Both the position numbers and the translations under genes were made by a program. The notes under the pieces were generated by a model. It was given only the letters and a program-made list of their open reading frames with translations. It ran no database searches and had not been told where the DNA came from. Shown here piece after piece: positions 116-31,300 of a stretch of DNA of 64,000 nt. Within the stretch, counting starts at the first letter, position 1. Every line of letters begins with the position of its first letter. Origin of the DNA: Odiellus spinosus (lineage: Eukaryota; Arthropoda; Arachnida; Opiliones; Phalangiidae); contig OY987231.1 of NCBI GenBank assembly GCA_963920705.1, positions 9,045,424-9,109,423 of the forward strand, in the 5' to 3' direction.

Positions 116-158
116 CTATAAAATAAATAATCAAAAACATTACTTTGTAAAAAAATGA
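116..158. other. Junction between opposed satellite arrays
   Basis: Non-repetitive AT-rich spacer where the satellite changes orientation. It does not match the unit itself. The two flanks form a large imperfect inverted repeat around this spacer. Confidence 0.6.
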
Positions 159-6564: not shown

Positions 6565-9170
6565 CTGTAAATAAAAATATTAAATAAATACACCCCCTGT
6601 AAATAAAAATAAATAATAAATACACCCCCTGTAAATAAAAATAAATAATAAATACACCCCCTGTAAATAAAAATAAATAATAAATACACCCCCTGTAAAT
6701 AAAAATAAATAATAAATACACCCCCTGTAAATAAAAATAAATAATAAATACACCCCCTGTAAATAAAAATAAATAATAAATACACCCCCTGTAAATAAAA
6801 ATAAATAATAAATACACCCCCTGTAAATAAAAATAAATAATAAATACACCCCCTGTAAATAAAAATAAATAATAAATACACCCCCTGTAAATAAAAATAA
6901 ATACACCCCCTGTAAATAAAAATATTAAATAAATACACCCCCTGTAAATAAAAATAAATAATAAATACACCCCCTGTAAATAAAAATAAATAATAAATAC
7001 ACCCCCTGTAAATAAAAATAAATAATAAATACACCCCCTGTAAATAAAAATGAATAATAAATACACCCTCTGTAAATAAAATGAATAATAAATACACCCC
7101 CTGTAAATAAAAATAAATAATAAATACACCCCCTGTAAATAAAAATATTAAATAAATACACCCCCTGTAAATAAAAATAAATAATAAATACACCCCCTGT
7201 AAATAAAAATAAATGATAAATACACCCCCTGTAAATAAAAATAAATAATAAATACAACCCCTGTAAATAAAAATGAATAATAAATACACCCTCTGTAAAT
7301 AAAATGAATAAATACACCCCCTGTAAATAAAAATAAATAATAAATACACCCCCTGTAAATAAAAATGAATAATAAATACACCCCCTGTAAATAAAAATGA
7401 ATTATAAATACACCCCATGTAAATAGAAATGAATAATAAATACACCCCCTGTAAATAAAAATGAATAATAAATACACCCCCTGTAAATAAATATAAATAA
7501 TAAATACACCCCCTGTAAATAAAAATAAATAATAAATACATCCCCTGTAAATAAAAATAAATAATAAATACACCCCCTGTAAATAAAAATAAATAATAAA
7601 TACACCCCCTGTAAATAAAAATAAATAATAAATACACCCCCTGTAAATAAAAATAAATAATAAATACACCCCCTGTAAATAAAAATAAATAATAAATACA
7701 CCCCTTGTAAATAAAAATAAATAATAAATACACCCCCTGTAAATAAAAATAAATAATAAATACACCCCCTGTAAATAAAAATAAATAATAAATACACCCC
7801 CTGTAAATAAAAATAAATAATAAATACACCCCCTGTAAATAAAAATAAATGCACCCCCTGTAAATAAAAATATTAAATAAATACACCCCCTGTAAATAAA
7901 AATAAATAATAAATACACCCCCTGTAAATAAAAATAAATAATAAATACACCCCCTGTAAATAAAAATAAATAATAAATACACCCCCTGTAAATAAAAATA
8001 AATAATAAATACACCCCCTGTAAATAAAAATAAATAATAAATACACCCCCTGTAAATAAAAATAAATAATAAATACACCCCCTGTAAATAAAAATAAATA
8101 ATAAATACACCCCCTGTAAATAAAAATAAATAATAAATACACCCCCTGTAAATAAAAATAAATAATAAATACACCCCCTGTAAATAAAAATAAATACACC
8201 CCCTGTAAATAAAAATATTAAATAAATACACCCCCTGTAAATAAAAATAAATAATAAATACACCCCCTGTAAATAAAAATAAATAATAAATACACCCCCT
8301 GTAAATAAAAATAAATAATAAATACACCCCCTGTAAATAAAAATGAATAATAAATACACCCTCTGTAAATAAAATGAATAATAAATACACCCCCTGTAAA
8401 TAAAAATAAATAATAAATACACCCCCTGTAAATAAAAATATTAAATAAATACACCCCCTGTAAATAAAAATAAATAATAAATACACCCCCTGTAAATAAA
8501 AATAAATGATAAATACACCCCCTGTAAATAAAAATAAATAATAAATACAACCCCTGTAAATAAAAATGAATAATAAATACACCCTCTGTAAATAAAATGA
8601 ATAAATACACCCCCTGTAAATAAAAATAAATAATAAATACACCCCCTGTAAATAAAAATGAATAATAAATACACCCCCTGTAAATAAAAATGAATTATAA
8701 ATACACCCCATGTAAATAGAAATGAATAATAAATACACCCCCTGTAAATAAAAATGAATAATAAATACACCCCCTGTAAATAAATATAAATAATAAATAC
8801 ACCCCCTGTAAATAAAAATAAATAATAAATACATCCCCTGTAAATAAAAATAAATAATAAATACACCCCCTGTAAATAAAAATAAATAATAAATACACCC
8901 CCTGTAAATAAAAATAAATAATAAATACACCCCCTGTAAATAAAAATAAATAATAAATACACCCCCTGTAAATAAAAATAAATAATAAATACACCCCCTG
9001 TAAATAAAAATAAATAATAAATACACCCCCTGTAAATAAAAATAAATAATAAATACACCCCCTGTAAATAAAAATAAATAATAAATACACCCCCTGTAAA
9101 TAAAAATAAATAATAAATACACCCCCTGTAAATAAAAATAAATAATAAATACACCCCCTGTAAATAAAAA
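6565..9170 (+). repeat. 1,293-bp higher-order repeat within the 32-bp satellite
   Basis: Rare variant units recur at a fixed offset of 1,293 bp. The short unit AAATGCACCCCCTG occurs near 6556 and again near 7850. The ATATT unit pairs near 6570 and 7863, and near 6916 and 8209, keep the same spacing, as does the CCCCATG variant near 7399 and 8692. At least two consecutive copies of a ~40-unit block are present, as expected from unequal exchange or segmental duplication. An earlier related copy near 6010 has a different spacing (about 1,390 bp). Confidence 0.8.
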
Positions 9171-9833
9171 TAAATACACCCCCTGTAAATAAAAATATTA
9201 AATAAATACACCCCCTGTAAATAAAAATAAATAATAAATACACCCCCTGTAAATAAAAATATTAAATAAATACACCCCCTGTAAATAAAAATAAATAATA
9301 AATACACCCCCTGTAAATAAAAATAAATAATAAATACACCCCCTGTAAATAAAAATAAATAATAAATACACCCCCTGTAAATAAAAATAATAAATACACC
9401 CCCTGTAAATAAAAATAAATAATAAATACACCCCCTGTAAATAAAAATAATAAATAAATACACCCCCTGTAAATAAAAAATAAATAATAAATACACCTCC
9501 TGTAAATAAAAATAATAAATACACCCCCTGTAAAAAAAATAATAAATACACCCCCTGTAAATAAAAATAAATAATAAATACACCCACTGTAAATAAAAAT
9601 AAATAATAAATACACCTCCTGTAAATAAAAATAATAAATACACCCCCTGCAAATAAAAATAAATAATAAATACACCCACTGTAAATAAAAATAATAAATA
9701 AATACACCCCCTGTAAATAAAAATAAATAATAAATACACCCCCTGTAAATAAAAATAAATAATAAATACACCCCCTGTAAAATAAATAATAAATACATAA
9801 ATACATAAATAATAAATAAATTAATAATTGATT

Positions 9834-13064: not shown

Positions 13065-16000
13065 CTGATATAAAATAAAACAATTTTTTTGGTTAACTTT
13101 CGTTACTAATTATTAGGGGTGTGCGAGTACTCGCAAATTGCTAGTACTCGGTCGCGAGTCCGAGTCCGAGTACTCGGACTCGGACTCGCAACACGTTTTT
13201 CCAGGACTCGCGCGAGTACCCGAGTCCTCCACCAAGGCTAAAAATTACTCGCATAGGACTCGCAATAGGTATAAAAATCGGACGAGTCCTAATTTTTGGG
13301 GGGAGTTTATAATTTTACAAAAGTTTCTATACATATAGTTAATTTACTTTACCTTTTAGCACTTTTACTACTTAAAAAATCCTTTATCACCGAAAATTCC
13401 AATACAATAGTAAATGGTATAGGTGGGTAAACTTCATCTTTGATTTGCCACAGCCAACTTTGATCACTCTTATTTTGTGCCGCCCTGGCTTCAAAATATA
13501 GAAATCAAAGTTGGCTGTACATATAAATAGGCATTAAAGGCGGATGCACACTGATTAATCTAGGGAAATTTTAGATAATTTGCCCATATAGATCTATTGT
13601 AAAACGACCTTGAACCACAGAAGATTTTTCAGTGTGCCTCCAGCTTTAAATTTCCTCTTGGCGACGCCTTGTGATTGGCTATTTCAGTTTCAACAATCCA
13701 TCCCAAAAAAAGTTCAATGTGTTCAAGCCGTAGTTGCGGTTTAGAAAACGTGAAAATCTAGGCTTCTCTAAGGAATTTTAATACAGAGACTTCTCTCTAC
13801 AAAATGTGATTGGCTGGTTCAAACTGAACCAGCCAATCACATTTTATGTAAATGTAGAGAGAGAAGCCTCTGTATTGTAATTCCATAGAGAAGCATTAAC
13901 TAAAAAATTTAAAAATTTGGGACTCGTCTTGGACTCGGCTAGAAATTTTGGACTCGTATTGGACTCGAAACCATTTCTTAAGGACTCGAAGACTCGTCGA
14001 GTCCAGTTTTTCAGGACTCGGACTCGGACGAGTCCAGTTTTCCAGGACTCGGGACTCGACTCGAAACCAAAAAAACAGGACTCGCACACCACTACTAATT
14101 ATGCTAATATAATATATAGAACGTACCAAAAGTGGTATTGATGTCATCCAGATCCTCTCCTCTCTTCACCGTATCAGCAACTTCTTTCATACGGAGCTTG
14201 CGAATCGCGAGACACGACTTCGCTTCCTCACCTTTTCTCAACCAATTAACAGCCTTTAATTAAGAAATTAAAATGATTAATTTAATAAATTATATTTAAG
14301 ATAAGGTTTTAAATTGACGAACTTGGGCGTATAAAGCGTCTTTTTTGGGTCCAGAAGGCATTTCTGAAATTTTAACGATAACGACATCTAGCTTTAAGTT
14401 TTAACCAATACTCATAATTTATATACGAAAAAATAAAAGAAAATAGATAAATTAAAATATTTGTTGAATTTATTTTTGGATTCATTGAATGTTGTTAGAT
14501 TCTTTGAATTTTTCGGATTCTTTGAATTTTTTGGATTCATTGAATGTTTTTAGATTCATTGAATGTTTTTAGATTCATTGAATGTTTTTAGATTCATTGA
14601 ATGTTTTTAGATTCATTGAATGTTTTTAGATTCATTGAATGTTTTTAGATTCATTGAATGTTTTTAGATTCATTGAATGTTTTTAGATTCATTGAATGTT
14701 TTTAGATTCATTGAATGTTTTTAGATTCATTGAATGTTTTTAGATTCGTTGAATGTTTAGATTCGTTGAATGTTTTTAGATTCATTGAATGTTTTTAGAT
14801 TCATTGAATGTTTTTAGATTCATTGAATGTTTTTAGATTCATTGAATGTTTTTAGATTCATTGAATGTTTTTAGATTCATTGAATGTTTAGATTCGTTGA
14901 ATGTTTTTAGATTCATTGAATGTTTTTAGATTCATTGAATGTTTTTAGATTCATTGAATGTTTTTAGATTCATTGAATGTTTTTAGATTCATTGAATGTT
15001 TTTAGATTCATTGAATGTTTTTAGATTCATTGAATGTTTTTAGATTCATAGAATTTTTCGGATTCATTTAATTTTTCGGATTCATTGAATGTTTTTAGAT
15101 TCATTAAATTTTTTGGATTCATTGAATTTTTTGGATTCATTGAATATTTTTTAATTTATTGTTTTTGGACTCGTTGAATTTTATTGGGATTTTGAATTTG
15201 TAGAGCCAATGCAAGCTTTGAATAAACATAATTTACCTTTAACAGCAGGAACTATAGTATTCAGCGCTTGTTTATAAAAACTTAAAGCTTTTTTGTAATT
15301 TCCAGCTAACATCTTCGTTAAAATTATCGAGTGAAATGAAAAATAAAGATTCACAATTATCAATTCATCAAAAAATGTTGAATCAGTATCTTACTTCTTG
15401 ATCCCCAGCATTCCCGTTGGCGAAAGACTCTGATAATTTGCTCTGATTTGTTAACAGTTCGTCTACAATTACAAATTAGTGAAATTACGTAATAAAAAGA
15501 ATTAACAAAATTTTTTAATTTAAACCAAAAGTCTATCACTTTATTCCATAAAACGTAAACAACGCCCCGTAGTTTAATACTATCAGCACAGGACCAGGTT
15601 AATGTATCGGCAGGTTCAGATTAGAGATACTCTAGCCTCCGCAGTCGGTGTAAATAGTGAAATCAGAAGCGCCACTCTTTGGAGAAATTCCGCGGTTGGG
15701 AGGGAAGACAATATTAGCTAAGCGTGGCCCGCCTAAATTTCGTTCCTTCCTCTTGACTCAAAATATCGAGGAAGAGTCCAAAACACTCGAGCCAGACAGG
15801 GGTGATGACTTTTTTGGCTAGTTTTAAGTAATGGGCTAGTACCTTTACTTGGCCCTTTGCTGATAGTATTAAGCTATGTGACGTTGTTTACTTTTATGGA
15901 ATAAAGTGATACACTTTTGTTGAAACTACAGTTCCTTTTCCTAATTAACTAGTAAATAACATAAATCAATTTAAAAATGGTTGTCTGACCACTTTCGTTA

Positions 16001-19000
16001 CCTCTTTAACAAAGTTGACAAAAGCTACGTTCAAGCGTTATAAAACGACAAAAATTCTAAGACTTTCCATAAAAATTAGAAAAGATGACATTATCACCTG
16101 AAAATAATTCTTTAATTAAATGGAAATGTTTTCAAACCTTGTTGAACTTTCAAATAATATTTTCAAGGTAATAAATACTAATAATTACAATTTGGGGCAT
16201 AGATCTTTACAACTGACCACAAATTGAAATTTACAAACTGTCCTTCCCAAAATGAGCTCTTATGTTTCAAAATATCTAGTGCGAACGTGACAACTAAAGA
16301 TATATAAAATTTAAAAGTGATAATGAAACAATTTTTATGGAAAAATCTATATTTTTCAGCTTAAAACTATTATTAAAAAAGGTTATCTATCGTAAAAATT
16401 TCTTTGACCTGTATCAAAATGTTTTATTTCTCTGACCTTTTAGCCTAATTTTAAAATTCTCTGACTTTATGGAACCCATTTTGAAATTCCCTAACTCTTC
16501 CTTGATGTTTTGGGCTCATTTTATAATTCCCTGACTTTAAGGGCTCATTATTCAAATTCCCTGACTTTTGGGCCCATTTGAAAATTCTCTGACTATATGG
16601 TACCCATTTTAAATTTCCTATTTTTCCCTGACCTTTAGGGGCCATTTGAAAATTCCCTGACTTTTCTAGGTTTTCCAGGTCGTGTACGAATCCTGGATAA
16701 GTTTTGAAAGGAAAAGTAACTAGACTTTTGCCATAAGGGGCATTTTTTTCAACACGATAGAAAGATTTAAAAAATTAAATATACTTACGTAAAATATCGC
16801 CTCTCTGATCACTGGATGTCGATTGTGATTGTGGTTGTGAACTAGTATTTTCATTGGTGGATTTTTGGCTCTCTTTGCGTAACAATTCCGCTCGATCCAT
16901 ATACTCAGTTACCTTTAACCTCAAAATTTCTCTCTTTTTGGGACTAGTTTCGCCTAAATATACAATAAATTGGAAAACCTCAAAAAAAAAAAAAAAAAAA
17001 AATTAGAATTTCATTAACTTACACTGAGCGTGAGGAACTAGATATAAAAGACCTTTAAAATAAAGCTCGCAAGCTTTGTCACAATCACCCATTTCATCTT
17101 TGGCAACCGCTTGAGTTATCAATGAAATCTGTAGTGAAAAAAAATCCTTGTAGATATTTAAATTAGGCTGCATTCGCACTAGAGAATTCTAAACCGTTCT
17201 GAATGTTCAGATCATCTTTTCAAGCAAATAATTCCAGTTTTTGGGCAAAGTCTCCATAGTTGACCCTCAAATTTTACAACTTGACCTTTTCAAAATGGTT
17301 TCAAAACATCTAGTGCGAACGCGTCTTAAGTGATGGATCCAAACCGATACTGGATCAGTATCGTTTTAAATTACAGATACCGTTATGGGGGTCTTTTACA
17401 ACTTGTTTTCGCGCCCAACCTCAATCCAATGTGACATCAAAAACAAAAAGAACAAATCAAACAATGCCGTAAATTTATATTGAGTTTTATTTAAAAAATA
17501 GATCAGTTTCTGCATAAGTAACATAATAGACATTATGTTACTTATGGTTTCTGTAGGATTAAGAGAATAGCGCCAAGAAAGAAAGTGGAGATTTGAAAGT
17601 ATTTTTTAAATTAATAAATACTTACTCCTTTATCGTAGGATTCTGGCGAAGGCATATGTTCCAAGTCGACGAAAGAATGGTTAAAAAAGTCTTCGAAAGA
17701 TATTCGATTAGTCGGGTCTCTCTGTAAAAGCCTCGTTAAGAGGTCCAAGCATTCATCAGATAATTCGGGAGAGAATGGAATCTGTCAAAAATATGCTTCA
17801 ATTAAAGGGATTTTTAAAGTCACTTTCTTTATATCTTACCAGACGCAGTTCACCGTAACTAATTGTACAGTCAAAGCTAAGCTGAGCGCTTAGAGATGCG
17901 AGGATGCGCAACCTGACTTGATTCGGGCCTTGTAGAATTGATCTCCAGTTAATTTTTATTCTTTAGAAATTGAAAATATTCCCTAGACTATTTTTACATG
18001 CGCATGACGTGAGTTTTACTTCGTATTTCAATGGGCTTCCAATTTTGAGCAAATTAGAAGAAAGTAAAACTGCCATCAAGTGGGATTTTTTTCAATTTCT
18101 TGTGATTAAATTCGAGAGCTTGGTGCAAGATCAATTTGACAAGGCACGAATCTAGCGACTACTTTAAAGCATGGGCCAAGAAACGATGAATCCAGGACAT
18201 GACTCTTCTCTGTTTGAGGGAATAAAATTCTCGGTCGGCCAAACAGCCTTCGTACAGCGTGTGATGTTACTTTGCTCCCAAAACGCCATAGCTTTGACTG
18301 TACAAAATTGACCCCAACGCATCATCACAGTGGTGACATAGCCGGTTTCTTTTAGTAGACTCTAGAGTCATGTCCTGGATTTATCGCCGTCAATTTGGCA
18401 GAATCGGTCGTTCATTCGGCCAGATGAATCGGTCCAAAATAATACTTTAGAGTTTGATAATTCTTTATATCTCAGCTCAAAAATGGTCAATATTTATGAA
18501 ATAATTGTATTTTATACTAATTGAACTCCTCTTTCGAATGAGACAGGTCAAGTTAAATTCAACTAATACCTTCTTAATCAAATAAAACTATGAAAATTAA
18601 GAAAAACCGACTTTTTTACATATATATTGGTTGAGATTCGTTGAGATTGGTTGAGATTCGTTTCGGTTGGTTGAGATTCGTTGAGATTGCTTGAAAGTGG
18701 TAGAGATTCGTTGAGATTGGTTGAAAGTGGTAGCGATTGGTTGAGATTGGTTGAAAGTGGTAGAGATTGGTTGTGAGTGGTAGAGATTGGTTGAGATATG
18801 TTGAGATTGGTTGAGATACGTTCAGATTGGTTGAGATACGTTCAGATTGGTTGAGATTGGTTGAGATTGGTTGAGATACGTTGAGATTGGTTGAGATACG
18901 TTGAGATTGGTTGAGATACGTTGAGATTGGTTGAGATACGTTGAGATTGGTTGAGATACGTTGAGATTGGTTGAGATACGTTGAGATTGGTTGAGATACG

Positions 19001-22000
19001 TTGAGATTGGTTGAGATACGTTGAGATTGGTTGAGATACGTTGAGATTGGTTGAGATACGTTGAGATTGGTTGAGATACGTTGAGATTGGTTGAGATACG
19101 TTTAGATTGGTTGAGATTGGTTGAGATACGTTGAGATTCGTTGAGATACGTCGAGATACGTCGAGATACGTTGAGATACGTCGAGATACGTTGAGATACG
19201 TCGAGATACGTTGAGATACGTCGAGATACTTTGAGATTGGTTGAGATTGGTTGAGATTGGTTGAGATTGGATGAGATACGTTGAGATACGTTGAGATTGG
19301 TTGAGATTCGTTGAGATACGTTGAGATTGGTTGAGATACGTTGAGATTGGTTGAGATACGTTGAGATACGTTGAGATTGGTTGAGATTGGTTGAGATTGG
19401 TTGAGATACGTTGAGATTGGTTGAGATACGTTGAGATTGGTTGAGATTGGATGAGATTGGATGAGATACGTTGAGATTGGTTGAGATATGTTGAGATTGG
19501 TTGAGATACGTTGAGATTGGTTGAGATACGTTGAGATTGGATGAGATACGTTGAGATAGGTTGAGATACGTTGAGATAAGTTGAGATTGGTTGAGATACT
19601 TTGAGATTGGTTGAGATACGTTGAGATTGGTTGAGATACGTTGAGATTGGTTGAGATTGGTTGAGATTGGTTGAGATTGGTTGAGATTGGATGAGATTGG
19701 ATGAGATTGGATGAGATTGGATGAGATACATTGAGATACGTTGAGATTGGTTGAGATACGTTGAGATTGGTTGAGATTGGTTGAGATTGGTTGAGATACG
19801 TTGAGATTCGTTGAGATTCGTCGAGATACGTCGAGATACGTTGAGATACGTCGAGATACGTTGAGATACGTTGAGATTGGTTGAGATTGGTTGAGATACG
19901 TTGAGATTGGTTGAGATTGGTTGAGATTGGTTGAGATTGGTTGAGATTGGTTGAGATACGTTGAGATTGGTTGAGATACGTTGAGATTGGTTGAGATACG
20001 TTGAGATTGGTTGAGATACGTTGAGATTGGTTGAGATACGTTGAGATTGGTTGAGATTGGATGAGATACGTTGAGATTGGTTGAGATACGTTGAGATTGG
20101 TTGAGATACGTTGAGATTGGTTGAGATTGGTTGAGATTGGTTGAGATACGTTGAGATTGGTTGAGATACGTTGAGATTGGTTGAGATACGTTGAGATTGG
20201 TTGAGATACGTTGAGATTGGTTGAGATATGTTTAGATTGGTTGAGATTGGTTGAGATACGTTGAGATTGGTTGAGATACGTTGAGATTGGTTGAGATTGG
20301 ATGAGATTGGATGAGATACATTGAGATACGTTGAGATTGGTTGAGATACGTTGAGATTGGTTGAGATACGTTGAGATACGTTGAGATTCGTTGAGATACG
20401 TCGAGATACGTCGAGATACGTTGAGATACGTCGAGATACGTTGAGATACGTCGAGATACGTTGAGATACGTCGAGATACTTTGAGATTGGTTGAGATTGG
20501 TTGAGATACGTTGAGATTGGTTGAGATTGGATGAGATACGTTGAGATACGTTGAGATTGGTTGAGATTCGTTGAGATACGTTGAGATTGGTTGAGATACG
20601 TTGAGATTGGTTGAGATACGTTGAGATACGTTGAGATACGTTGAGATTGGTTGAGATTGGTTGAGATTGGTTGAGATACGTTGAGATTGGTTGAGATTGG
20701 ATGAGATTGGATGAGATACGTTGAGATTGGTTGAGATATGTTGAGATTGGTTGAGATACGTTGAGATTGGTTGAGATACGTTGAGATTGGTTGAGATACG
20801 TTGAGATTGGTTGAGATACGTTGAGATTGGTTGAGATTGGTTGAAATTCGTTGAGATTGGATGAGATACGTTGAGATTGGATGAGATACGTTGAGATAGG
20901 TTGAGATACGTTGAGATAAGTTGAGATTGGTTGAGATACGTTGAGATTGGTTGAGATACGTTCAGATTGGTTGAGATACGTTGAGATTGGTTGAGATTGG
21001 TTGAGATTGGTTGAGATTGGTTGAGATTGGATGAGATTGGATGAGATTGGATGAGATTGGATGAGATTGGATGAGATACATTGAGATACGTTGAGATTGG
21101 TTGAGATACGTTGAGATTGGTTGAGATTGGTTGAGATACGTTGAGATTCGTCGAGATTCGTCGAGATACGTCGAGATACGTTGAGATACGTCGAGATACG
21201 TTGAGATACGTTGAGATTGGTTGAGATTGGTTGAGATACGTTGAGATTGGTTGAGATTGGTTGAGATTGGTTGAGATACGTTGAGATTGGTTGAGATACG
21301 TTGAGATTGGTTGAGATACGTTGAGATTGGTTGAGATACGTTGAGATTGGTTGAGATACGTTGAGATTGGTTGAGATACGTTGAGATTGGTTGAGATACG
21401 TTGAGATACGTTGAGATACGTCGAGATTGGTTGAGATTGGATGAGATTGGATGAGATACGTTGAGATTGGTTGAGATACGTTGAGATTGGTTGAGATACG
21501 TTGAGATTGGTTGAGATACGTTGAGATTGGTTGAGATACGTTGAGATTGGTTGAGATTGGTTGAAATTCGTTGAGATTGGATGAGATACGTTGAGATTGG
21601 TTGAGATACGTTGAGATTGGTTGAGATCGGTTGAGATTGGTTGAGATACGTTGAGATTGGTTGAGATACGTTGAGATTGGTTGAGATACGTTGAGATTGG
21701 TTGAGATACGTTGAGATTGGTTGAGATTCGTTGAGATTGGTTGAGATTCGTTGAGATAGGTTGAGATACGTTGAGATAGGTTGAGATACGTTGAGATTGG
21801 TTGAGATACGTTGAGATTGGTTGAGATACGTTGAGATTGGTTGAGATTGGTTGAAATTCGTTGAGATTGTATGAGATACGTTGAGATTGGATGAGATACG
21901 TTGAGATACGTTGAGATAAGTTGAGATTGGTTGAGATACGTTGAGATTGGTTGAGATACGTTGAGATTGGTTGAGATTGGTTGAGATACGTTGAGATTGG

Positions 22001-25000
22001 TTGAGATACGTTGAGATTGGTTGAGATTGGTTGAGATACGTTGAGATTCGTTGAGATTCGTCGAGATACGTCGAGATACGTTGAGATACGTCGAGATACG
22101 TTGAGATACGTCGAGATACGTTGAGATTGGTTGAGATTGGTTGAGATACGTTGAGATTGGTTGAGATTGGTTGAGATTGGATGAGATACGTTGAGATTGG
22201 TTGAGATACGTTGAGATTGGTTGAGATACGTTGAGATTGGTTGAGATTCGTTGAGATTGGTTGAGATTCGTTGAGATAGGTTGAGATACGTTGAGATAGG
22301 TTGAGATACGTTGAGATAGGTTGAGATACGTTGAGATTGGTTGAGATACGTTGAGATTGGTTGAGATACGTTGAGATTGGTTGAGATTGGTTGAAATTCG
22401 TTGAGATTGTATGAGATACGTTGAGATTGGATGAGATACGTTGAGATTGGATGAGATAAGTTGAGATTGGTTGAGATACGTTGAGATTGGTTGAGATACG
22501 TTGAGATTGGTTGAGATACGTTGAGATTGGTTGAGATACGTTGAGATTGGTTGAGATACGTTGAGATTGGTTGAGATACGTTGAGATTCGTTGAGATTGG
22601 TTGAGATACGTTGAGATTGGTTGAGATACGTTGAGATTGGTTGAGATACGTTGAGATACGTTGAGATTCGTCGAGATTGGTTGAGATACGTTGAGATACG
22701 TTGAGATTGGTTGAGATTGGTTGAGATTGGTTGAGATTGGATGAGATTGGATGAGATACGTTGAGATTGGTTGAGATACGTTGAGATTGGTTGAGATTGG
22801 TTGAGATACGTTGAGATTGGTTGAGATTGGATGAGATACGTTGAGATTGGTTGAGATACGTTGAGATTGGTTGAGATACGTTGAGATTGGTTGAGATACG
22901 TTGAGATTGGTTGAGATACGTTGAGATTGGTTGAGATACGTTGAGATTGGTTGAGATACGTTGAGATTGGTTGAGATACGTTGAGATACGTTGAGATTCG
23001 TCGAGATTGGTTGAGATACGTTGAGATACGTTGAGATTGGTTGAGATTGGTTGAGATTGGTTGAGATTGGATGAGATTGGATGAGATACGTTGAGATTGG
23101 TTGAGATACGTTGAGATTGGTTGAGATACGTTGAGATTGGTTGAGATACGTTGAGATTGGTTGAGATACGTTGAGATTGGTTGAGATACGTTGAGATTGG
23201 TTGAGATTGGTTGAAATTCGTTGAGATTGGATGAGATACGTTGAGATTGGATGAGATACGTTGAGATACGTTGAGATAAGTTGAGATTGGTTGAGATACG
23301 TTGAGATTGGTTGAAATATGTTGAGATTGGTTGAGATTGGTTGAGATACGTTGAGATTGGTTGAGATACGTTGAGATTGGTTGAGATTGGTTGAGATACG
23401 TTGAGATTCGTTGAGATTCGTCGAGATTCGTCGAGATACGTCGAGATACGTTGAGATACGTCGAGATACGTTGAGATACGTCGAGATACGTTGAGATTGG
23501 TTGAGATTGGTTGAGATACGTTGAGATTGGTTGAGATTGGATGAGATACGTTGAGATTGGTTGAGATACGTTGAGATTGGTTGAGATACGTTGAGATTGG
23601 TTGAGATACGTTGAGATTGGTTGAGATACGTTGAGATTGGTTGAGATACGTTGAGATTGGTTGAGATACGTTGAGATACGTTGAGATTCGTCGAGATTGG
23701 TTGAGATACGTTGAGATACGTTGAGATTGGTTGAGATTGGTTGAGATTGGATGAGATTGGATGAGATACGTTGAGATTGGTTGAGATACGTTGAGATTGG
23801 TTGAGATACGTTGAGATTGGTTGAGATACGTTGAGATTGGTTGAGATACGTTGAGATTGGTTGAGATACGTTGAGATTGGTTGAGATACGTTGAGATTGG
23901 TTGAGATACGTTGAGATTGGTTGAGATTGGTTGAAATTCGTTGAGATTGGATGAGATACGTTGAGATTGGTTGAGATCGGTTGAGATTGGTTGAGATTCG
24001 TTGAGATAGGTTGAGATACGTTGAGATAGGTTGAGATACGTTGAGATAGGTTGAGATACGTTGAGATTGGTTGAGATACGTTGAGATTGGTTGAGATACG
24101 TTGAGATTGGTTGAGATACGTTGAGATTGGTTGAGATACGTTGAGATTGGTTGAGATACGTTGAGATTGGTTGAGATACGTTGAGATTGGTTGAGATACG
24201 TTGAGATACGTTGAGATTGGTTGAGATACGTTGAGATTGGTTGACATACGTTGAGATTGGTTGACATACGTTGAGATTGGTTGACATACGTTGACCTACG
24301 TTGAGATTGGTTGACCTACGTTGAGATTGGTTGACCTACGTTGAGATTGGTTGACCTACGTTGAGATTGGTTGACCTACGTTGAGATTGGTTGACATACG
24401 TTGAGATTGGTTGACATACGTTGAGATTGGTTGACATACGTTGAGATTGGTTGACATACGTTGAGATTGGTTGACATACGTTGAGATTGGTTGACATACG
24501 TTGAGATTGGTTGACATACGTTGAGATTGGTTGACATACGTTGAGATTGGTTGACATACGTTGAGATTGGTTGACATACGTTGAGATTGGTTGACATACG
24601 TTGAGATTGGTTGACATACGTTGAGATTGGTTGACATACGTTGAGATTGGTTGACATACGTTGAGATTGGTTGACATACGTTGAGATTGGTTGACATACG
24701 TTGAGATTGGTTGACATACGTTGAGATTGGTTGACATACGTTGAGATTGGTTGACATACGTTGAGATTGGTTGACATACGTTGAGATTGGTTGACATACG
24801 TTGAGATTGGTTGACATACGTTGAGATTGGTTGACATACGTTGAGATTGGTTGAGATACGTTAAGATTGGTTGAGATACGTTGAGATTGGTTGAGATACG
24901 TTGAGATTGGTTGAGATACGTTGAGATCGGTTGAGATACAATGAGATTCGTTAAGATACGTTGAGATACGCTGAGATACGTTGAGATTCGTTGAGATTGG

Positions 25001-28000
25001 TTTGAGATTGTTTGAGATACGTTGAGATTGGTTGAGATACGTTGAGATTGGTTGAGATACGTTGAGATTGGTTGAGATACGTTGAGATACGTTGAGATTC
25101 GTTAAGATACGTTGAGATACGCTGAGATACGTTGAGATTGGTTGAGATACATTGAGATTGGTTGAGATACGTTGAGATTGGTTGAGATACGTTGAGATTG
25201 GTTGAGATACGTTAAGATTGGTTGAGATACGTTGAGATTGGTTGAGATTGATTGAGATTGGTTGAGATACGTTGAGATTGTTTTTAACGAGACGTATCTC
25301 ATTCGAAAGAGGAGTTTAATTAGAATAATTAAGAATTATTTATAAAACTTTGACCGATTTTGAGCCGAGATATATGGGTTTTTATGTACCCCTGATATAT
25401 ATATTTAAATATAGCACATGTCAAAAAATTTGTTTTTTCTTAATTTTCATAATTTTATTTCCTAATGAAGGAAAGACATGTTTTTAACGAGACGTATCTC
25501 ATTCGAAAGAGGAGTTTAATTAGAATAATCAAGAATTATTTAAAAAACTTTGACCTTTTCTGAGCCGAGATATATAGGTTTTATGTACCCCTTGATGAAT
25601 ATTGGTTTATTCATCTGGCCGAATGAACGACCGATTCTGCCAAATTGACGGCGATCCTGGATTTATCGTTTCTTCGCCCATGTTTAAAGGGACAATTATT
25701 ATAACTATAAACTTACTTCGATTGGTTTATCACTTTTTATTTTCTCAGCCAATTCGGTAAATGAAGCGGAACTGTATGGAGCTCTTCCATACAAGCATTC
25801 TATTTCGTTAATGGAATTTCAGTAAACGTTAAGAGCAAATAAAAGCCCTTAAAGCAACTGGCGGCTCTTAGAGTTTCTCCTAAATGAACGCTTTTCTGTT
25901 ACACAATTAATTTACCTTACCAAAGGCGGGTCCCATTGGCTCCTTTCACAGCTCCTCCAGAGCCGCCATTTGCTTTAAAAGCCTTGAAGGAAACAACTAC
26001 ATCAGTGTCCTTGACAAATTTATCGTAAAACTTCGATCGGTTATTATAAGTCTCACACGCTCAACTTAGATTTATCTATTTTGGCCATTATGAGGCTAGG
26101 CCAATAAATAAAAAGACGAGTATGACACTAAAATTATCTCTCGGGGTTCTTAGGGGGGGGGGGGGGGGGGGGCTTCAATTTATTCTATTTATATAATCAC
26201 TTAAATCAGTTCAATTAACTAATAGAGATGAACCTGAATCTGTCATAAAAACTACAAGACTTTTCAAGGCTGTAACTGGCCCAAAATGTCACCCAAAACT
26301 TTCAGATAGGACCATCCACTGCCCAAAACTAGCTGGTAATTGAAATATATAAAATGTGAATTGAAGTTTATTCTATTGTCAGGATTTAATTGACTAACCA
26401 AAAAGAATGATTCCAACAGACCACAGATCGACGGTAGCATCGTATTGGTGTTTTAACAATATTTCTGGTGCCATATATAATGGCGATCCCCTTAGAGACG
26501 AAGCTTCCTCGTCACTACTCAGGTACTGAGCAAAACCAAAATCTGAATGAAATAAAAAAGAGAATCGAGTAGTTGGCAGGTTGACCATGACAAATTTTCC
26601 ATTGCTTTATAGGAAATTACAGGGATAAAGTTTTAAGAAATATAAGAAAATATAGGTTTCAAATATGAAGTTGTTGTTTTTAAAGGGTAAAACCCACTTA
26701 TTTCTGGCTGAACCCCCCAATTGAGCGGGCCTAGTTTATAGTTAGGGCTACTATTCGTCTAGTTGATAGTTAGGGCTACCCCTCGCGCCTAGTTGATAAT
26801 TAGGGCTACTACTCGCCTAGTTGATAGTATTAGTTAGGGCTACTACTCGCCTGGTTGATAGTTAGGGCTACTACTCGCCTAGTTGATAGTTAGGGCTACT
26901 ACTCGCCTAGTTGATAGGTCTACTACTTGCCTACTTGATTATTAAGAAAGGGGTACGTGGGAGGATAAATCCTGCATCCTGCCACACACGTCGACTCGTA
27001 GTCCATTGTAAAAACTCATCTGCTTGATAGTTTACTACTCGCCTATTGAAAGTTAGGTTTAATACTCGCGTAATTGATAATGAGGCCAACTACTCTCTTA
27101 CTTGATATTGAGATCAAGTTGATTGTGAGGCTAACTACTGACCCATCGAGTATTAAGTTAAATTATCAAGTAGCAAACTCAATACTCATCACCAGCATTA
27201 AAATTAGGCAAAACAAGTACCGAGCATTCACCATGAAGTTAATTTATATTTATATATTACATACCTGCGATTTTTAATTTGGGATCCCGGACAGAATTTA
27301 ACAAAATATTTTGAGGCTTAAGATCCATATGAGTGATATTATGTTGTCGGAGAACTTTCAACGCAACCGCTAAAGTAATTATTGATAAGCAGTTAACTGG
27401 TTGTTACTAATTTAATTTTAAATTAGAATTGAATTAAGAACGAACGTACCAATTTGTTGTAAAAAACGGCGCACTATGCTTTCAGGTAGTTTTTTTCGTT
27501 GTTTAATGAAATGTGACAAATCGCCTCCTGCACAAAATTCCATGACAAGGTAAATGTGACCAGCATCCCACTGCAATTCATGGAGACATGATGATGAATT
27601 AACGCTATAAATTGTTCCTGCCTTTGGCAAGCTGGATTTGATGTGTAACAGGAAGAGAATTTCACAGGGGGGCCTTGAGGACCTGCCACTAGTTTTAATA
27701 ACCTAATTTCTGGTGATTTGGAGTTCTAGTTTCGACAATCAAACTGGGAAGTTACTTTCTCGTAACCATTTTTTTCTTTTTTTCTTTTTCCTGGATTTTG
27801 TAAGGAGCTAGGGATGTAATTACATCCTTAACAGCTCCCAAACTGACTCACAAAATGTGTAAAATTAAATAAAAATAAGGACGACTCATTATAAGAAGAC
27901 GGCTTATTGAGTTGACTTCTTAACACCTTATAATTAAATAGGGTCACAACCCTATAAAATCTGGTACTATATCAATTAATAATTACCTCAAAATCGATCA

Positions 28001-28340
28001 TTTCGACTATGTATTCGCATTTAATTTTTTTAAGAATTTCTATTTCCGTGACAATATTTTCCTTAGCTGCCTTTGACAATGATGAAAGCGAGATGCATTT
28101 TACAGCTAAGCATTCACCGTCGCCTTTTCGCAAATTATCCTAAAAATAAATAAAAGTTGAGTAGGAATTATTCGAATTAATGATAATCTGAATTACGATT
28201 TCTATATTTACTTTTCTATACGCCTTGAATACTGAGGCATAGGTTCCTTGTCCAATCTTTTGAGTGAAATAATAATTTTTGAGAATCTTCATATTATTTT
28301 GAGTTATTCCTAAACTAGGTCCTGGCTTCGGTTTATCCAT
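13042..28340 (-). CDS. ULK3: ULK3-like serine/threonine-protein kinase (14 exons, complete)
   Basis: Exons, 5' to 3' on the minus strand: 28340-28212, 28139-27987, 27570-27450, 27369-27265, 26542-26399, 25799-25717, 17781-17626, 17128-17023, 16953-16789, 15462-15395, 15312-15237, 14363-14323, 14253-14127, 13064-13042. All phases join and give 498 residues (human ULK3 is 472). The kinase domain covers about 22-280: GQGTYASV loop, Lys57, alphaC Glu75, HMDLKPQN (Asp150), DFG 170-172, APE 194-196. [10 protein letters not shown] follows the kinase as in ULK3. MIT domains lie at about 298-355 and 400-465, and the protein ends Cys-Asn-Ile-Gln. ULK3 acts in autophagy, Hedgehog signalling and the ESCRT abscission checkpoint, the MIT domains binding ESCRT-III tails; these roles come from family knowledge. 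AAAAAATGG gives a good start context. The catalytic residues are intact and I see no frameshift. Introns range from 69 bp to 7.9 kb. Homology is near certain, exact ends slightly less so. Confidence 0.95.
13106..13113. repeat. hAT target-site duplication, left copy
   Basis: CTAATTAT, identical to 14095-14102. Confidence 0.92.
13450..13518. repeat. Inverted repeat inside the hAT element
   Basis: ACAGCCAACTTTGAT (13450-13464) and its exact complement ATCAAAGTTGGCTGT (13504-13518) enclose a 39-bp loop. Confidence 0.85.
13762..13893. repeat. Long hairpin (~63-bp arms) inside the hAT element
   Basis: GCTTCTCTAAGGAATTTTAA... pairs with ...TTGTAATTCCATAGAGAAGC. The inner 21 bp on each side (AAAATGTGATTGGCTGGTTC and complement) are perfect, with a ~3-nt loop at 13822-13824. 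It could be a smaller foldback element nested in the hAT or part of the element itself. Confidence 0.88.
14095..14102. repeat. hAT target-site duplication, right copy
   Basis: CTAATTAT, identical to 13106-13113. It lies two bases from the in-frame TAG that would end exon 13 if it were not spliced. Confidence 0.92.
14127..14253 (-). CDS. ULK3: ULK3 exon 13 (MIT 2 third helix)
   Basis: Residues 450-491. [20 protein letters not shown] continues MIT 2 (compare NLMARAEYLKEQV), then [20 protein letters not shown]. The donor GTACGT lies before an in-frame TAG at 14104-14106; without splicing the protein would end seven residues later. Confidence 0.88.
14323..14363 (-). CDS. ULK3: ULK3 exon 12 (41 nt)
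   Basis: Residues 436-449 ([14 protein letters not shown]), matching AEPPGRRRELLHTEV of human ULK3. The donor GTTCGT is weaker than the others, but it is the only one that keeps frame with exon 13. Too short for ORF finders. Confidence 0.85.
14470..15178 (+). repeat. 19-bp minisatellite in ULK3 intron 11
   Basis: About 37 copies of TTGAATGTTTTTAGATTCA. The middle is nearly uniform; two copies near 14750 and 14885 lack TT and have GTTGAATG. The edges are diverged (GAATTTTTCGGATTC). It lies between exon 11 and exon 12 and has no coding potential. Confidence 0.95.
15237..15312 (-). CDS. ULK3: ULK3 exon 11 (MIT domain 2)
   Basis: Residues 411-435: [20 protein letters not shown] then VPAVK. This is the A/B helix pair of the second MIT domain, equivalent to ALDLYQHSLGELLLLL in human ULK3. 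Acceptor CGAAG, donor GTAAAT. Confidence 0.9.
15395..15462 (-). CDS. ULK3: ULK3 exon 10
   Basis: Residues 388-410 ([20 protein letters not shown]...). Little conserved, but the phases on both sides match and it links the MIT domains. Acceptor TTGTAG, donor GTAAGA. Confidence 0.85.
15521..15926. mobile_element. ~405-bp MITE in ULK3 intron 9
   Basis: Inverted ends: AAAAGTCTATCACTTTATTC near 15527 and GAATAAAGTGATACACTTTT near 15899, continuing as CCATAAAACGTAAACAACG versus CGTTGTTTACTTTTATGG. Related sequence occurs at 36840-36975 and 60190-60300. No coding capacity. The target duplication is not clear. Confidence 0.8.
16110..16290. mobile_element. Diverged MITE related to 17163-17329
   Basis: The right end TTTCAAAATATCTAGTGCGA (16268-) and the interior (TTTGGGGCATAGATCT, CAAATTGAAATTTACAA) align with the MITE at 17163-17329. 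The left end is degraded, so the start is approximate. Confidence 0.5.
16395..16690 (+). repeat. Diverged ~40-bp tandem repeat (AATTCCCTGACTTT)
   Basis: About seven imperfect copies of AAAATTCCCTGACTTTWNGG followed by GCCCATTT, ending TTCTAGGTTTTCCAGGTCGT. In intron 9 of ULK3. A related CCCTGATATTTCC-type repeat occurs at 49190-50021. The function is unknown. Confidence 0.7.
16789..16953 (-). CDS. ULK3: ULK3 exon 9 (MIT 1 third helix and linker)
   Basis: Residues 333-387. [20 protein letters not shown] is the third MIT helix. A polar Ser/Gln/Asn-rich linker follows ([15 protein letters not shown]). Donor GTAAGT, phase 1. Confidence 0.92.
17023..17128 (-). CDS. ULK3: ULK3 exon 8 (MIT domain 1)
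   Basis: Residues 298-332 and the first base of Cys333. [20 protein letters not shown] then [12 protein letters not shown] is a MIT helix pair like ALSLYCKALDFFVPALHYE in human ULK3. Confidence 0.92.
17163..17329. mobile_element. ~160-bp MITE in ULK3 intron 7, PIF/Harbinger-like
   Basis: GGCTGCATTCGCACTAGA at the left and its imperfect complement CTAGTGCGAACGCGTC at the right, both bordered by TTA. A 3-bp TTA duplication and GG...CC ends fit PIF/Harbinger MITEs. The superfamily is inferred. Confidence 0.7.
17626..17781 (-). CDS. ULK3: ULK3 exon 7 (end of kinase domain)
   Basis: Residues 246-297: [20 protein letters not shown], then [15 protein letters not shown] and the ULK3 hallmark [15 protein letters not shown]. 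Acceptor GACAG, donor GTAAGT; phase 0 on both sides. Confidence 0.93.
17868..18300. mobile_element. 433-bp Tc1/mariner-like MITE in ULK3 intron 6
   Basis: TA|CAGTCAAAGCT at 17866-17878 and AGCTTTGACTG|TA at 18290-18302: 11-bp perfect inverted ends starting CAGT with a TA target duplication, the Tc1/mariner pattern. The open frame inside (17970-18155) has no recognisable domain. A related end, CAGCTTTGACTGTA, is at about 54567. Confidence 0.8.
18371..18600. repeat. Left inverted arm flanking the decamer satellite
   Basis: TCCTGGATTTATCGCCGTCA (18373-) through CCAGATGAAT, then CTCCTCTTTCGAATGAGA near 18526 and ATTAAGAAAAA near 18596, are in the same order and reverse-complementary to 25420-25660. 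An extra ~160 bp bounded by AATCCAGGACATGACTCT and its complement lies just outside and is absent from the other arm. Confidence 0.85.
18621..25283 (+). repeat. ~6.6-kb satellite of decamers (TTGAGATTGG / TTGAGATACG) in ULK3 intron 6
   Basis: The base unit is 10 bp, TTGAGATNNG, mostly arranged as 20-bp pairs TTGAGATTGG-TTGAGATACG. TTGAGATTCG, TCGAGATACG, ATGAGATACG and TTGAAATTCG variants recur in clusters. From 18621 to 25000 every unit starts at the same position modulo 10, so no net indel other than multiples of ten has been fixed. A one-base shift appears only at 25001. The edges are diverged (TTGAAAGTGG near 18700). The unit has no stop on the minus strand, which yields open frames up to 1,801 codons ([10 protein letters not shown]-type repeats). 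These have no splice context or gene features and are artefacts. Confidence 0.97.
24243..24846 (+). repeat. Uniform sub-block of the decamer satellite (TTGACATACG)
   Basis: About 30 identical 20-bp pairs TTGAGATTGG-TTGACATACG, with TTGACCTACG in a run at 24291-24380. The change G to C or CA distinguishes it from the rest and indicates a recent local amplification. Confidence 0.9.
25281..25665. repeat. Right inverted arm flanking the decamer satellite, partly duplicated
   Basis: Contains two direct copies (25283-25390 and 25484-25590) of TTTTTAACGAGACGTATCTC, then ATTCGAAAGAGGAGTTTAAT and a TGAGCCGAGATATA tail, and then the outer arm AATTGACGGCGATCCTGGAT that mirrors 18373-18395. The arm contains CGTATCTCA, the complement of the satellite core TGAGATACG. 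Confidence 0.85.
25717..25799 (-). CDS. ULK3: ULK3 exon 6
   Basis: Residues 218-245, [20 protein letters not shown] and following, matching EALFGQPPFASRSFSELEEK of human ULK3. An in-frame donor, GTAAGT, opens the 7.9-kb intron that holds the decamer satellite. Confidence 0.92.
26153..26172 (+). repeat. G20 homopolymer tract in ULK3 intron 5
   Basis: Twenty consecutive G in an AT-rich context. It could form a G-quadruplex on the + strand (C-run on the sense strand of ULK3). Length should be treated as uncertain because such runs are error-prone. Confidence 0.9.
26399..26542 (-). CDS. ULK3: ULK3 exon 5 (activation segment)
   Basis: Completes Asp170 and runs to residue 217. Has [20 protein letters not shown], then PLYMAPE and [10 protein letters not shown] (subdomain IX). 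Acceptor TTCAG, donor GTTAGT. Confidence 0.93.
26720..26940 (+). repeat. 30-bp minisatellite in ULK3 intron 4
   Basis: About seven copies of GTTGATAGTTAGGGCTACTA followed by CTCGCCTA; degenerate copies continue to about 27130 (CTACTCGCCTATTGAAAG). Not telomeric despite TTAGGG, because the unit is 30 bp. Confidence 0.88.
27265..27369 (-). CDS. ULK3: ULK3 exon 4 (catalytic loop)
   Basis: Residues 135-169 plus the first base of Asp170. Contains [13 protein letters not shown], the catalytic loop with Asp150, Lys152 and Asn155. The usual HRD Arg is Met here; human ULK3 has Leu (HLD), so the loss of Arg is a family trait. Donor GTATGT. Confidence 0.93.
27450..27570 (-). CDS. ULK3: ULK3 exon 3 (kinase hinge)
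   Basis: Residues 95-134. [20 protein letters not shown] is the hinge and is nearly identical to vertebrate ULK3 ([10 protein letters not shown]). The open frame continues upstream past 27570, but the acceptor ATTGCAG and homology set the boundary. The donor is GTACGT; phase 1. Confidence 0.93.
27987..28139 (-). CDS. ULK3: ULK3 exon 2 (catalytic lysine, alphaC helix)
   Basis: Residues 44-94. Contains [10 protein letters not shown] with the ATP-anchoring Lys57 and [10 protein letters not shown] with the alphaC Glu75. Bounded by TTTTTAG and GTAATT; phase 0. Confidence 0.93.
28212..28340 (-). CDS. ULK3: ULK3 exon 1 (start codon, glycine-rich loop)
   Basis: Residues 1-43. ATG at 28340 lies in AAAAAATGG. 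A short basic N-terminus leads into [20 protein letters not shown], the ATP-binding loop, and ends at AYRK before GTAAAT. Phase 0. Confidence 0.93.
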
Positions 28341-31300
28341 TTTTTATTTTAGAAGAATAATTGAATTAAATTAAATCACATTTGCTTCGGTTCATTGACA
28401 CTTCGCAAGTTAGTAGTTACACCTCTTCTTAAATCACGAAATCATCGAAATGTTTTTAAGCAGACGACGCTACCACCGCAGTGAGTCGGTGTGATTTTCT
28501 TTTTAAAGGGAGTATGAAGTATTGAATTCAGGGTTTAGTAATATGACATATTTAATGGTAAATTATTAATTAAAAACTTCGCGCATGGTTATTTATTTTC
28601 GGAATCAAAAAACATGTTAAAAATGCGATCGAGAATATTTTTTTGCAATAATTGGGGCACACGTTTTTAATGTAAATTAATTTATAATCAGATTTGCCTC
28701 CTATCTTAAGTTGTCAATGACTAGTTGTCACTGTGACTGTTCTTCTAGAGTCTAGTTTCCATGGATTAAATTTTGTGTCCACCTAGTGATATTATAAAGC
28801 CTCTTCGACTGAAGAAAAGGGGGTAGGCATCCTTCAGAATCAGGCATACAACGGGGGTAGACCCAAAGCTATCAACTTAAATAAATCTTGATCAGTTCAG
28901 TGTGGTACAAATCCTTTTTGTAACAAGAAGGCTCAATGCCATAAACACATTTAAAACGGCTGCTGATTTTGGTTTACGCATCGAGAACTATTTTCTAAAA
29001 GCTGTTTTGTTCCAGAAGGGGGTTACCTTGGTGGTATCGTTGAGGGTTGGTAATATAGTTTCGAAAGGGAATACTCTCGCCATCTAGGAACTTTTTAAAA
29101 TACTAAAAGTAGTACTGTCGTCGAGATAATATCATTGGAAATATATACTCGTGTATTTTTTAAATAAACGTATTAAGTAAAAATGGAAGTACTTTTTTAA
29201 TTTTATCAGCCAAGGTTGTTGATGCTAATTTTTTTTTTTTTTTTTTTGGATGGCACACGAAGTCTCTTTTATATACAATTATCTCGTGATTCATATTTAC
29301 ATTATTAATATACAACATTACAGTTTCCAAATTTGGTTTTTGTCCATATAAACCACAAAAAACGTGCAAAAATGTATATTTTTTTCTTTGTTTATGCACA
29401 GATTTATATACTTTTTTATCCGCAACTTTATTATTTAGTAATAATAATATGAACTAGCACTGTGATACACGGTGCATCAATTGTTTTTCGCCATCTCCTT
29501 ATTCAATATTTAAATTTTTAGCTAACACTTCACAACAATTGTTTTTTTTTTTCTGATAGATTACTAATTTAGTAAAAATTATATTTATTTTTATTTTTAT
29601 TTTTTTTTATTCGGAAGAGTTTGAGTAAATAATATAATATACACTAATATATTTGAGATTTTCTTTTAAAGCCAGCCGCCAAATATGATAATAGTTCTTC
29701 AATGCTTTTAAATAGAGTTTTTTATGTGTAAAAATACTTAAGAGCTTGAAGGGAATAGAGCTTACGTGGTTTTCTTCACAAAAAAAAAATATATATATAT
29801 TTGTTTTAGGAATAGCCCCCGGTAACAAACCAAAACTAGCGCTAAAATACAGAGAGACAAAGGAGGGTCACAGACATTTTTTAACCTATTACGGTTTCGA
29901 TTCCCATTCAAAAAATATATATCTATAATTTTTATTTTTCGAAGAAGTTTACCAAGATTAAAATCCTAATAAATGTTAAAAGATTGATTATGTAATAAAT
30001 TTTTTTAATTTAATAATAAAATAAAAAAATGTGGAAGAATGATTTTCTTTTCATTCGGACTTTACAAATTTTATCATTCAAAATAATTTGTTTTCCAACA
30101 CCGGTACTCAAGGTTTGCAAAGGGTCTTTTAACAAATAACTAAGTCTCGCAGCCATTAAGACCTTGTACCAATAACCTATTCCTTGGAGGTCAAAGCCTG
30201 TGATCTAATCAGCAGTGATTTTGGGAGACAACAGCTGGGATTTAAACTTTAATTGAAACAGCTACATCATTTAATTAAATTAATTCGTTAAAATAAGCTA
30301 ACAAGCAGCAAGAATATCTATAGATTTGCTTTCTACCATTCCCATTGGTTGATTATTTTTATGCGTACATACGATCAGGTACTGCCTTATTATTAATTAT
30401 GAAAAAGGGAGCATAATCCTAAACAAAAAAATCGTACGCTAACGCAAACTAGATCTTGTTTCCTAACGTTACTAGCGCCGATTTTAGAGAACGATTATAG
30501 TGGCAAGAATGTTAAGCTGTACTTTCCACATCCTTATATCGATAAAACCTTTCCGATATTGGTAAAACTAAAAATTTTACGTCAAAACCTTTTACGTTAC
30601 GGCCACCCATCTACCTTAGAATATTTCGGAAGCAAATTATATAGAATAGAAACCCATATCTGTAATCTACATCTGTTATAGTGACGTCTGTCTTCCTTTA
30701 ATAATTTGGAGAAAGATCAGGATAAGTAAACTTTCTTCTACAAATCTTAGAATTATCACAAAAAAAAAAAAAAAAAAAAAAAAAATTATGGAGGAGATGC
30801 AATAGCTCGATTTGTTTTGGTTAGTTTTTGATACGAAAGAACGTAGAAAGAAGCACCCTAAACAATGGAGTAAAAACGCCACTTTGTCTTATTGTTAAAT
30901 ATTGAAATAAAATGAGTCACTGATTTGGAAAAGTGACAGTTAAAAAGTAAAATACAAGATTAGATTTGGCTTTAGTATAAAAATACTGAAGTTAGCTTCA
31001 AAAGTGCATTAAAAATTGGAATGAAAGCGTAATTTGGTTTTCAATTATGGAAAATAATAATTTTAAAATTTAATTTTAAATCATTAATTGCAATCTTTGC
31101 TTGGTTTACGACTTTACGTTAAAAAATTTAGTTCTAAGAGCTCTTTCCTTGCCAACATACTTCTTATATTGATAGGTAATCATTTTTAATTTTGCTTTAA
31201 ATTTACTTTTCATTATTTACGAGTACCGCAGTAAATTACACGTTTTTACTCTAGTAAATTACCGGATAATTAACAGTAAATTACCATCGAGCAGCTCAAA

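Follow-up and report, generated by a model that had tools for sequence, protein, structure and literature searches.

The 64,000-nucleotide stretch of the Odiellus spinosus genome analysed here (the window; contig OY987231.1, positions 9,045,424 to 9,109,423) holds a long array of 10-bp tandem repeats (decamers), which is located 9.06 Mb along the 24.6-Mb contig in a predicted intron of a ULK3-like kinase gene, the exons of which lie on the minus strand on both sides. The array comprises 665 decamers over 6.65 kb, of which 637 (18631-25000) are in one register and 28 more extend to 25281, and it makes up 91% of the length of a 7273-bp inverted-repeat transposon (18383-25655). On sequence comparison, this array is very probably the inner tandem-repeat domain of a non-autonomous foldback-type transposon, inserted in a repeat that resembles a miniature inverted-repeat transposable element (MITE) within the ULK3-like intron. 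The features of the locus are listed below, each with its basis in brackets.

17782-25716, minus strand: predicted intron of the ULK3-like kinase gene, 7935 bp, enclosing the whole element (GT donor at 25716, AG acceptor, exon peptides).
18162-18382, unstranded: left part of the host inverted-repeat (MITE-like) element, which continues at 25665-25689 (arm match and joined-flank alignments).
18374-18382, plus strand: left target site duplication, CCTGGATTT (same 9 bp at either end of the element).
18383-18630, plus strand: left arm, the tip of which (18383-18429) equals the right tip over 47 bp (arm-arm alignment, genome tip matches).
18631-25000, plus strand: 637 decamers, TTGAGATNNG and variants, in one register and mostly as the dimer TTGAGATTGG/TTGAGATACG (motif scan, autocorrelation, alignment).
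25001, plus strand: 1-bp T insertion, the only internal register change found (motif scan, alignment).
25002-25281, plus strand: 28 further decamers with a one-base shift (motif scan).
25282-25655, minus strand: right arm, inverted relative to the left arm (arm-arm alignment).
25656-25664, plus strand: right target site duplication, CCTGGATTT (same 9 bp at either end of the element).

The two ends of the element are 47-bp inverted copies of each other without any difference, the alignment of the arms (248 and 374 bp) continues further inward, and the 9-bp target site duplication that flanks the element on both sides is perfect (9/9). Within the right arm, the ~200-bp outer repeat of the transposon family is represented by two stretches, at 25279-25402 and 25479-25602, which are 88% alike. 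The arm of the host repeat at 18162-18206 aligns with the joined flanks over 45 columns, with two mismatches and one 1-base gap. When the flanks are joined (100 bp per side and one copy of the duplication), they align across the join at at least 38 other loci with 85-88% identity, among the 40 of 293 candidates that were scored, two of which are the window halves; these matches stop 18-28 bp past the join, at the end of the host repeat. The join is uninterrupted in relatives of this repeat, so the entire 7273-bp element came in by insertion into a dispersed inverted repeat. A very regular short satellite is here tied to a mobile element of which the insertion can be read, from the perfect duplication and the uninterrupted host-repeat relatives.

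The element belongs to a family. The tip pattern, searched for in the 443-Mb genome with at most two mismatches, has 59 matches (its reversed control has 0), and 40 of these tips form 20 facing pairs, the window copy being one of them; of the 19 unpaired tips, just two (in loci L010 and L039) were examined. The 9-bp target site duplication is perfect in 12 of the 20 paired copies, matches at 8/9 positions in four more, and is weak in L024, L020, L026 and L032 (7, 6, 4 and 2 of 9, respectively). The arms of the sister copies are mostly arrays of the ~200-bp repeats, for example 23.0 and 5.4 units in L009; the arms of the window copy are short, with two partial ~200-bp units on the right. Inverted terminal repeats, arms built of tandem subrepeats (in the sisters) and a target site duplication are the features of foldback elements that have been found. 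Taken together, the comparisons reveal inverted arms, identical tips, the 9-bp duplication, uninterrupted relatives of the host repeat, and sister copies with the same tips and arms.

In seven of the 19 other paired copies (L021, L023, L024, L032, L033, L034 and L035) a 21-bp array, GTTGAGACGG+GTTGAGAAAGA, is present inside the arms, with the left array forward and the right one reversed (forward only in L024 and reversed only in L035). The window decamers and these 21-bp arrays have a common GTTGAGA core and the same left-arm orientation, and the cyclic alignment of the 21-bp unit with the decamer dimer has a score of 54, which is reached by 0 of 1000 single-letter shuffles (best score 50), these shuffles preserving letters, not dinucleotides. 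Of the 1491 exact 21-mers, 794 are within the loci examined. Within a single genome, the family includes copies that lack an inner array, copies that have the 21-bp array and a copy that has the 10-bp array, so that the birth of a satellite can be compared copy by copy. The loop of the sister element in L033 (5875-6270) holds 33 copies of ATATAAATATAT, and in L029 (1593-2905, within the 12.9-kb copy L029/L030) there are pieces resembling another, mariner-like transposon.

The register of the decamers has been followed with a scan for TTGAGAT, counting matches of at least 5 of the 7 letters. Of the 637 matches starting at 18601-25000, all except one are at the same coordinate modulo 10; the off-register match, at 18615, is in the flank, outside the array, and the unit at 18661 (TTTCGGTTGG), which is below the threshold, still keeps the register. 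The 28 matches starting at 25001-25299 are all (28/28) shifted one base later. The base autocorrelation is 0.92 at lag 20, compared with 0.82 at lag 10 and 0.20 at lags 9 and 11, so the 20-bp dimer TTGAGATTGG + TTGAGATACG is the better unit for the array; among the 637 decamers there are 35 distinct types, with TTGAGATTGG occurring 272 times and TTGAGATACG 188 times. Wrap-around alignment of the array with one decamer gives 797 substitutions and two gap events, being the T insertion at 25001, which is the sole internal gap, and an end effect at 25279. In the alignment with the 20-bp unit there are 28 gap events and the 20-bp register is broken; therefore, odd numbers of decamers have been gained or lost. 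The earlier note on this DNA had described ~638 decamers of a 10-bp base unit, starting from 18621 at the same coordinate modulo 10 and having no indel outside multiples of 10 before 25001. The unit-by-unit alignment that it proposed, run here on the assembly sequence, agrees with this count (637 units) and with the absence of such indels up to the single insertion exactly at 25001. The array and its register are real, but the first full unit starts at 18631, and the 10-bp periodic signal, although present, is weaker than that of the dimer.

The variants of the array are arranged in copied contexts. Of the 175 units that are of neither main type, 116 are in a 5-unit context that recurs, compared with a mean of 7% and a highest value of 14% in 200 shuffles. 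In unit space, 18851-22570 aligns with 20121-23920 at offsets of 1.27-1.35 kb, with 277 of the 346 aligned units being equal and with 60 gap units; the score of this self-alignment is 144, versus 15, 17 and 19 for the three block shuffles that form the null, and its 12 rows are overlapping versions of one alignment. The hallmarks of a satellite (a long tandem array with copied variants) are seen in the 665 units, the recurring contexts and the self-alignment. From 24381 onward there is an exact 45-unit match at a two-unit lag, composed of TTGAGATTGG/TTGACATACG, a tract that would be a recent local expansion. An ungapped scan for block duplications (30-unit windows with at least 27 equal units) finds a single duplicated block pair, of 33 units. 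The blocks are therefore old or much altered, and, clean duplications being scarce, the block-duplication reading rests on the gapped self-alignment; large duplications, if real, would since have been changed as single units were added and removed.

Because the variants are in copied contexts and the array aligns with itself at 1.27-1.35 kb, growth in whole-unit steps is a better account of the register than helical twist. The decamer core probably grew, before or after the element was inserted, when copies paired in register underwent unequal exchange, slippage or block duplication. Such pairing would add or remove whole decamers, and each variant would spread together with its neighbours. 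In the main decamers the longest run of equal bases is two, and slips of 1-9 bp should therefore be rare. The 10-bp register would then be a by-product of amplification, requiring no helical cause, and this striking regularity can be explained without the helix. Exchange in 10- or 20-bp steps had been one of the two interpretations of the earlier note, and it is supported by the copied contexts, the self-alignment with whole-unit gaps and the 45-unit match. The decamers might have originated from a motif of the right arm, the reverse strand of which has ATGAGATACG, a decamer type that is present 23 times.

Strictness of register is not a property of the 10-bp period, as shown by the other arrays of the window and by those of loci picked near decamer or tip matches, which have been used as controls. 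The 12-bp array on C14 (L017, 303 units) has 342 substitutions and one gap, which is as strict as the decamer array; therefore a strict register needs no 10-bp period. The 12 aligned decamer arrays of the C8 cluster (those of L014 being outside this count) are without any gap, several of them looking like mutual copies. There are 0 gaps in the decamer arrays of L016, L018 and L015 (4015-4276), and one gap, at the array edge, in that of L017. The 23-bp and 37-bp arrays of the window also have no gaps, but with just one substitution each they are little informative. The 32-bp array of the window, which has a run-rich unit, has 59 gaps and 390 substitutions, and gaps occur likewise in other arrays that hold runs (8 gaps per 20 substitutions in the 19-bp array of the window, 2/11 in a 24-bp array and 10/85 in the 32-bp array of L016). 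The 21-bp arrays of the sisters range from no gaps in L033 to 20 gaps per 42 substitutions in one array of L023 and 25/26 in one of L032. Strictness thus appears to go with the absence of runs in the unit.

The other interpretation of the earlier note was that phased dinucleotide steps curve the DNA or fix the rotational position of nucleosomes, and that selection for this effect keeps the 10-bp register. The curvature prediction that it called for has been done with two parameter sets, both entered by hand, taking the ratio of end-to-end distance to contour length at 150 bp. The array has ratios of 0.852 and 0.948, and two non-repetitive stretches of the window have 0.909 and 0.916 with the first set and 0.980 with the second; the predicted curvature of the array is thus higher, and this, together with the strong 10-bp periodicity of the steps between G/C bases (SS), speaks in favour of such selection. 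Comparable curvature is, however, frequent in shuffled repeats: 13% and 18% of the shuffled 20-mers (n = 1500) are more curved than the 20-mer of the array, and the main decamer is exceeded in curvature by 58% and 41% of the shuffled decamers. The ratios are 0.869 and 0.987 for the 12-bp array and 0.813 and 0.962 for a sister 21-bp array; the decamer array may be gently curved, and it is not singled out among these comparisons. Rotational positioning of nucleosomes calls for antiphase, ~180 degrees, between SS steps and steps between A/T bases (WW). In the 10-bp cycle the AA/TT/TA steps peak at 82 degrees and the SS steps at 70 degrees, which is 12 degrees apart, and with AT included the WW peak is at 146 degrees, 76 degrees from SS. 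There is no antiphase, the 12-bp array is equally strict, and the sister elements use a 21-bp unit. Helical phasing as the cause of the register has been rejected by the two curvature models, the dinucleotide phase and the other arrays, and it is very unlikely. Of the interpretation in the earlier note, exchange in whole units therefore stands and the helical role does not; the transposon core and the location in an intron had been overlooked.

Satellite arrays are error-prone in genome assembly, and the regularity could be an artefact by which real indels have been collapsed or polished away. This is highly improbable, as substitution variants and whole-unit gaps have been kept in the array, the 1-bp insertion at 25001 has been preserved, and 59 and 8 gap events are retained in the 32-bp and 19-bp window arrays.

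Several observations weigh against assigning the decamers to the transposon family as its inner domain, grown in whole units. The decamer TTGAGATNNG is in none of the 19 other paired copies and the junctions between arm and array vary between copies, both of which speak against a simple common descent of the inner domain. The similarity of the 21-bp unit has been measured with the letter-preserving shuffles mentioned above, and the sisters are not all independent, as L021 and L034 look like near-copies of each other. Of the 72 genome matches to the transposase of Mutator-like elements (MULEs; PF10551), none is within 150 kb of any of the 59 tips, other transposase families not having been searched; on this result the family is not filed as MULE. 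Its 9-bp duplication does fit the size of Mutator duplications, which are ~8-11 bp. To these points are added the single clean block pair, the dimer array of L015 (4450-5222), with its 75 substitutions and 4 gap events, of which 3 adjoin a T run, and the presence of decamers outside the foldback family. In the genome, exact TTGAGATNNG pairs occur 770 times forward and 16 times reverse. The window has 422 of the forward pairs, the C8 cluster 281 and the C7:3.98 Mb locus 59, which together are the 762 of the loci examined; the remaining 8 and all 16 reverse pairs are elsewhere.

It is possible, though it seems the less probable explanation, that the decamer array is an independent satellite captured between the arms (for example, by break repair from another array) instead of a domain inherited within the family. 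The arms of the window element have no match at E 1e-5 in the decamer loci at C8:16.43-16.46 Mb and C7:3.98 Mb, the window copy alone among the 20 paired copies has the decamer, and L015 has the dimer of the window and 5 of its 9 decamer types in common with it. Against this, seven sisters have arrays with the GTTGAGA core between the same arms and in the orientation of the arm, and separate capture must explain these too. A further, more tentative idea is that decamers of the GTTGAGAT type are an exchangeable core common to inverted-repeat elements of this genome, between foldback arms as well as, in near-identical form, between the oppositely oriented ACACCCCCTGT units of an apparently unrelated family. 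If true, palindrome centres may be recurrent landing and growth sites for one short satellite.

The decamer loci outside the family differ in their arrangement. At C8:16.43-16.46 Mb (L011-L014), at least 12 decamer blocks alternate with a 32-bp repeat in one orientation; the block junctions are near-identical, as if a composite unit had been duplicated, and L011 has 942 N bases. In L016 (4380-5100) and, less cleanly, in L015 (4000-5700), a decamer array is flanked by ACACCCCCTGT units in opposite orientations, and this arrangement suggests that there is a second inverted-repeat family having decamers at its core. The unit of L016 is TTGAGATTGA, one base off the main type of the window, and none of its three types is in the window. 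No long arms are found in L018, only short imperfect inverted pairs of 18-22 nt around the array. In L017 (1212-5399), scanned for inverted arms on one side only, the 303-unit 12-bp array of TTGAGGATCGTT runs directly into a 56-unit 10-bp array of TTGAGATTGA. The window itself has a 9.6-kb array of the 32-bp unit (ACACCCCCTGT...) at 158-9805, and this unit is in the opposite orientation at 1-157, an inverted arrangement cut by the window edge.

The Drosophila FB element, described by Potter in 1982, reportedly carries tandem repeats of 10, 20 and 31 bp in its inverted repeats. A literature search by titles and abstract openings finds no description of the present element, and five literal strings of its repeats and tips are absent from the papers searched. 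The closest known systems, as far as their partial descriptions allow a comparison, are Tetris, Tm1 and Muta1. Tetris, a foldback element of Drosophila virilis, is described as having inverted repeats built of ~220-bp tandem units, target duplications of 8-10 bp and a variable middle part; no transposase has been found for it, and its ~220-bp units amplify into a satellite (PMC4079207). The window family resembles it in the long inverted repeats, the ~200-bp tandem units, the 9-bp duplication, the variable middle part, the absence of a linked MULE transposase and an array growing inside the element; compared by description only, it differs in that its long array is a distinct inner repeat with a short unit of 10 or 21 bp, reaching 91% of the window copy (PMC4079207). 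Tm1, a Mutator/Foldback element of root-knot nematodes, has composite inverted repeats in which a ~14-bp motif occurs in varying copy number, and its duplications are mostly 9 bp (8-10 bp in 45 of 53), so that short tandem motifs in an inverted-repeat element and 9-bp duplications are shared; unlike the window family, some Tm1 copies encode a putative transposase (PMC3169594). The MULEs of Aedes aegypti, including Muta1, have 8-9-bp duplications, with 9-15-bp tandem repeats in 10 of the 12 families with long terminal inverted repeats. The short repeats of Muta1 are subterminal (9 copies of 12 bp), whereas those of the window copy are enclosed by the ~200-bp outer repeats and reach hundreds of units (PMC5225508). 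Galileo of Drosophila has long inverted repeats, with ~210-bp internal tandem repeats in one subfamily, but it has a P-superfamily transposase, and no short inner satellite is seen in its description (PMC3573991). By these descriptions, the difference from the known foldbacks is the short inner satellite of hundreds of units. By analogy with what has been proposed for other foldback repeats, one may conjecture that the core helps transposition, through extra contacts for the transposase or as a spacer.

The assignment of the surrounding gene comes from exon peptides that were trimmed by eye and then joined, the intron being predicted from sequence. The joined peptides match Pkinase (9.8e-66), and the best solved structure is ULK3 (6.4e-101), followed by ULK1 (1.7e-57). 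The gene is spread over ~13 kb of short exons (15181-28343 of the window, minus strand), with two downstream MIT-like pieces scoring under the MIT family cut-off. In the flanking gene region there is a run of ~20 G (~26150-26173), where the assembly may be unreliable. The donor of the intron is 60 bp from the right end of the element, and the predicted intron of a conserved kinase gene can evidently hold a 6.65-kb satellite. Read on the minus strand, the array is nearly open, with just 3-6 stops in each frame and a longest open frame of 1817 codons, compared with 213-220 stops per frame on the plus strand. A coding array has been considered and rejected, as this openness follows from the unit and the array is intronic.

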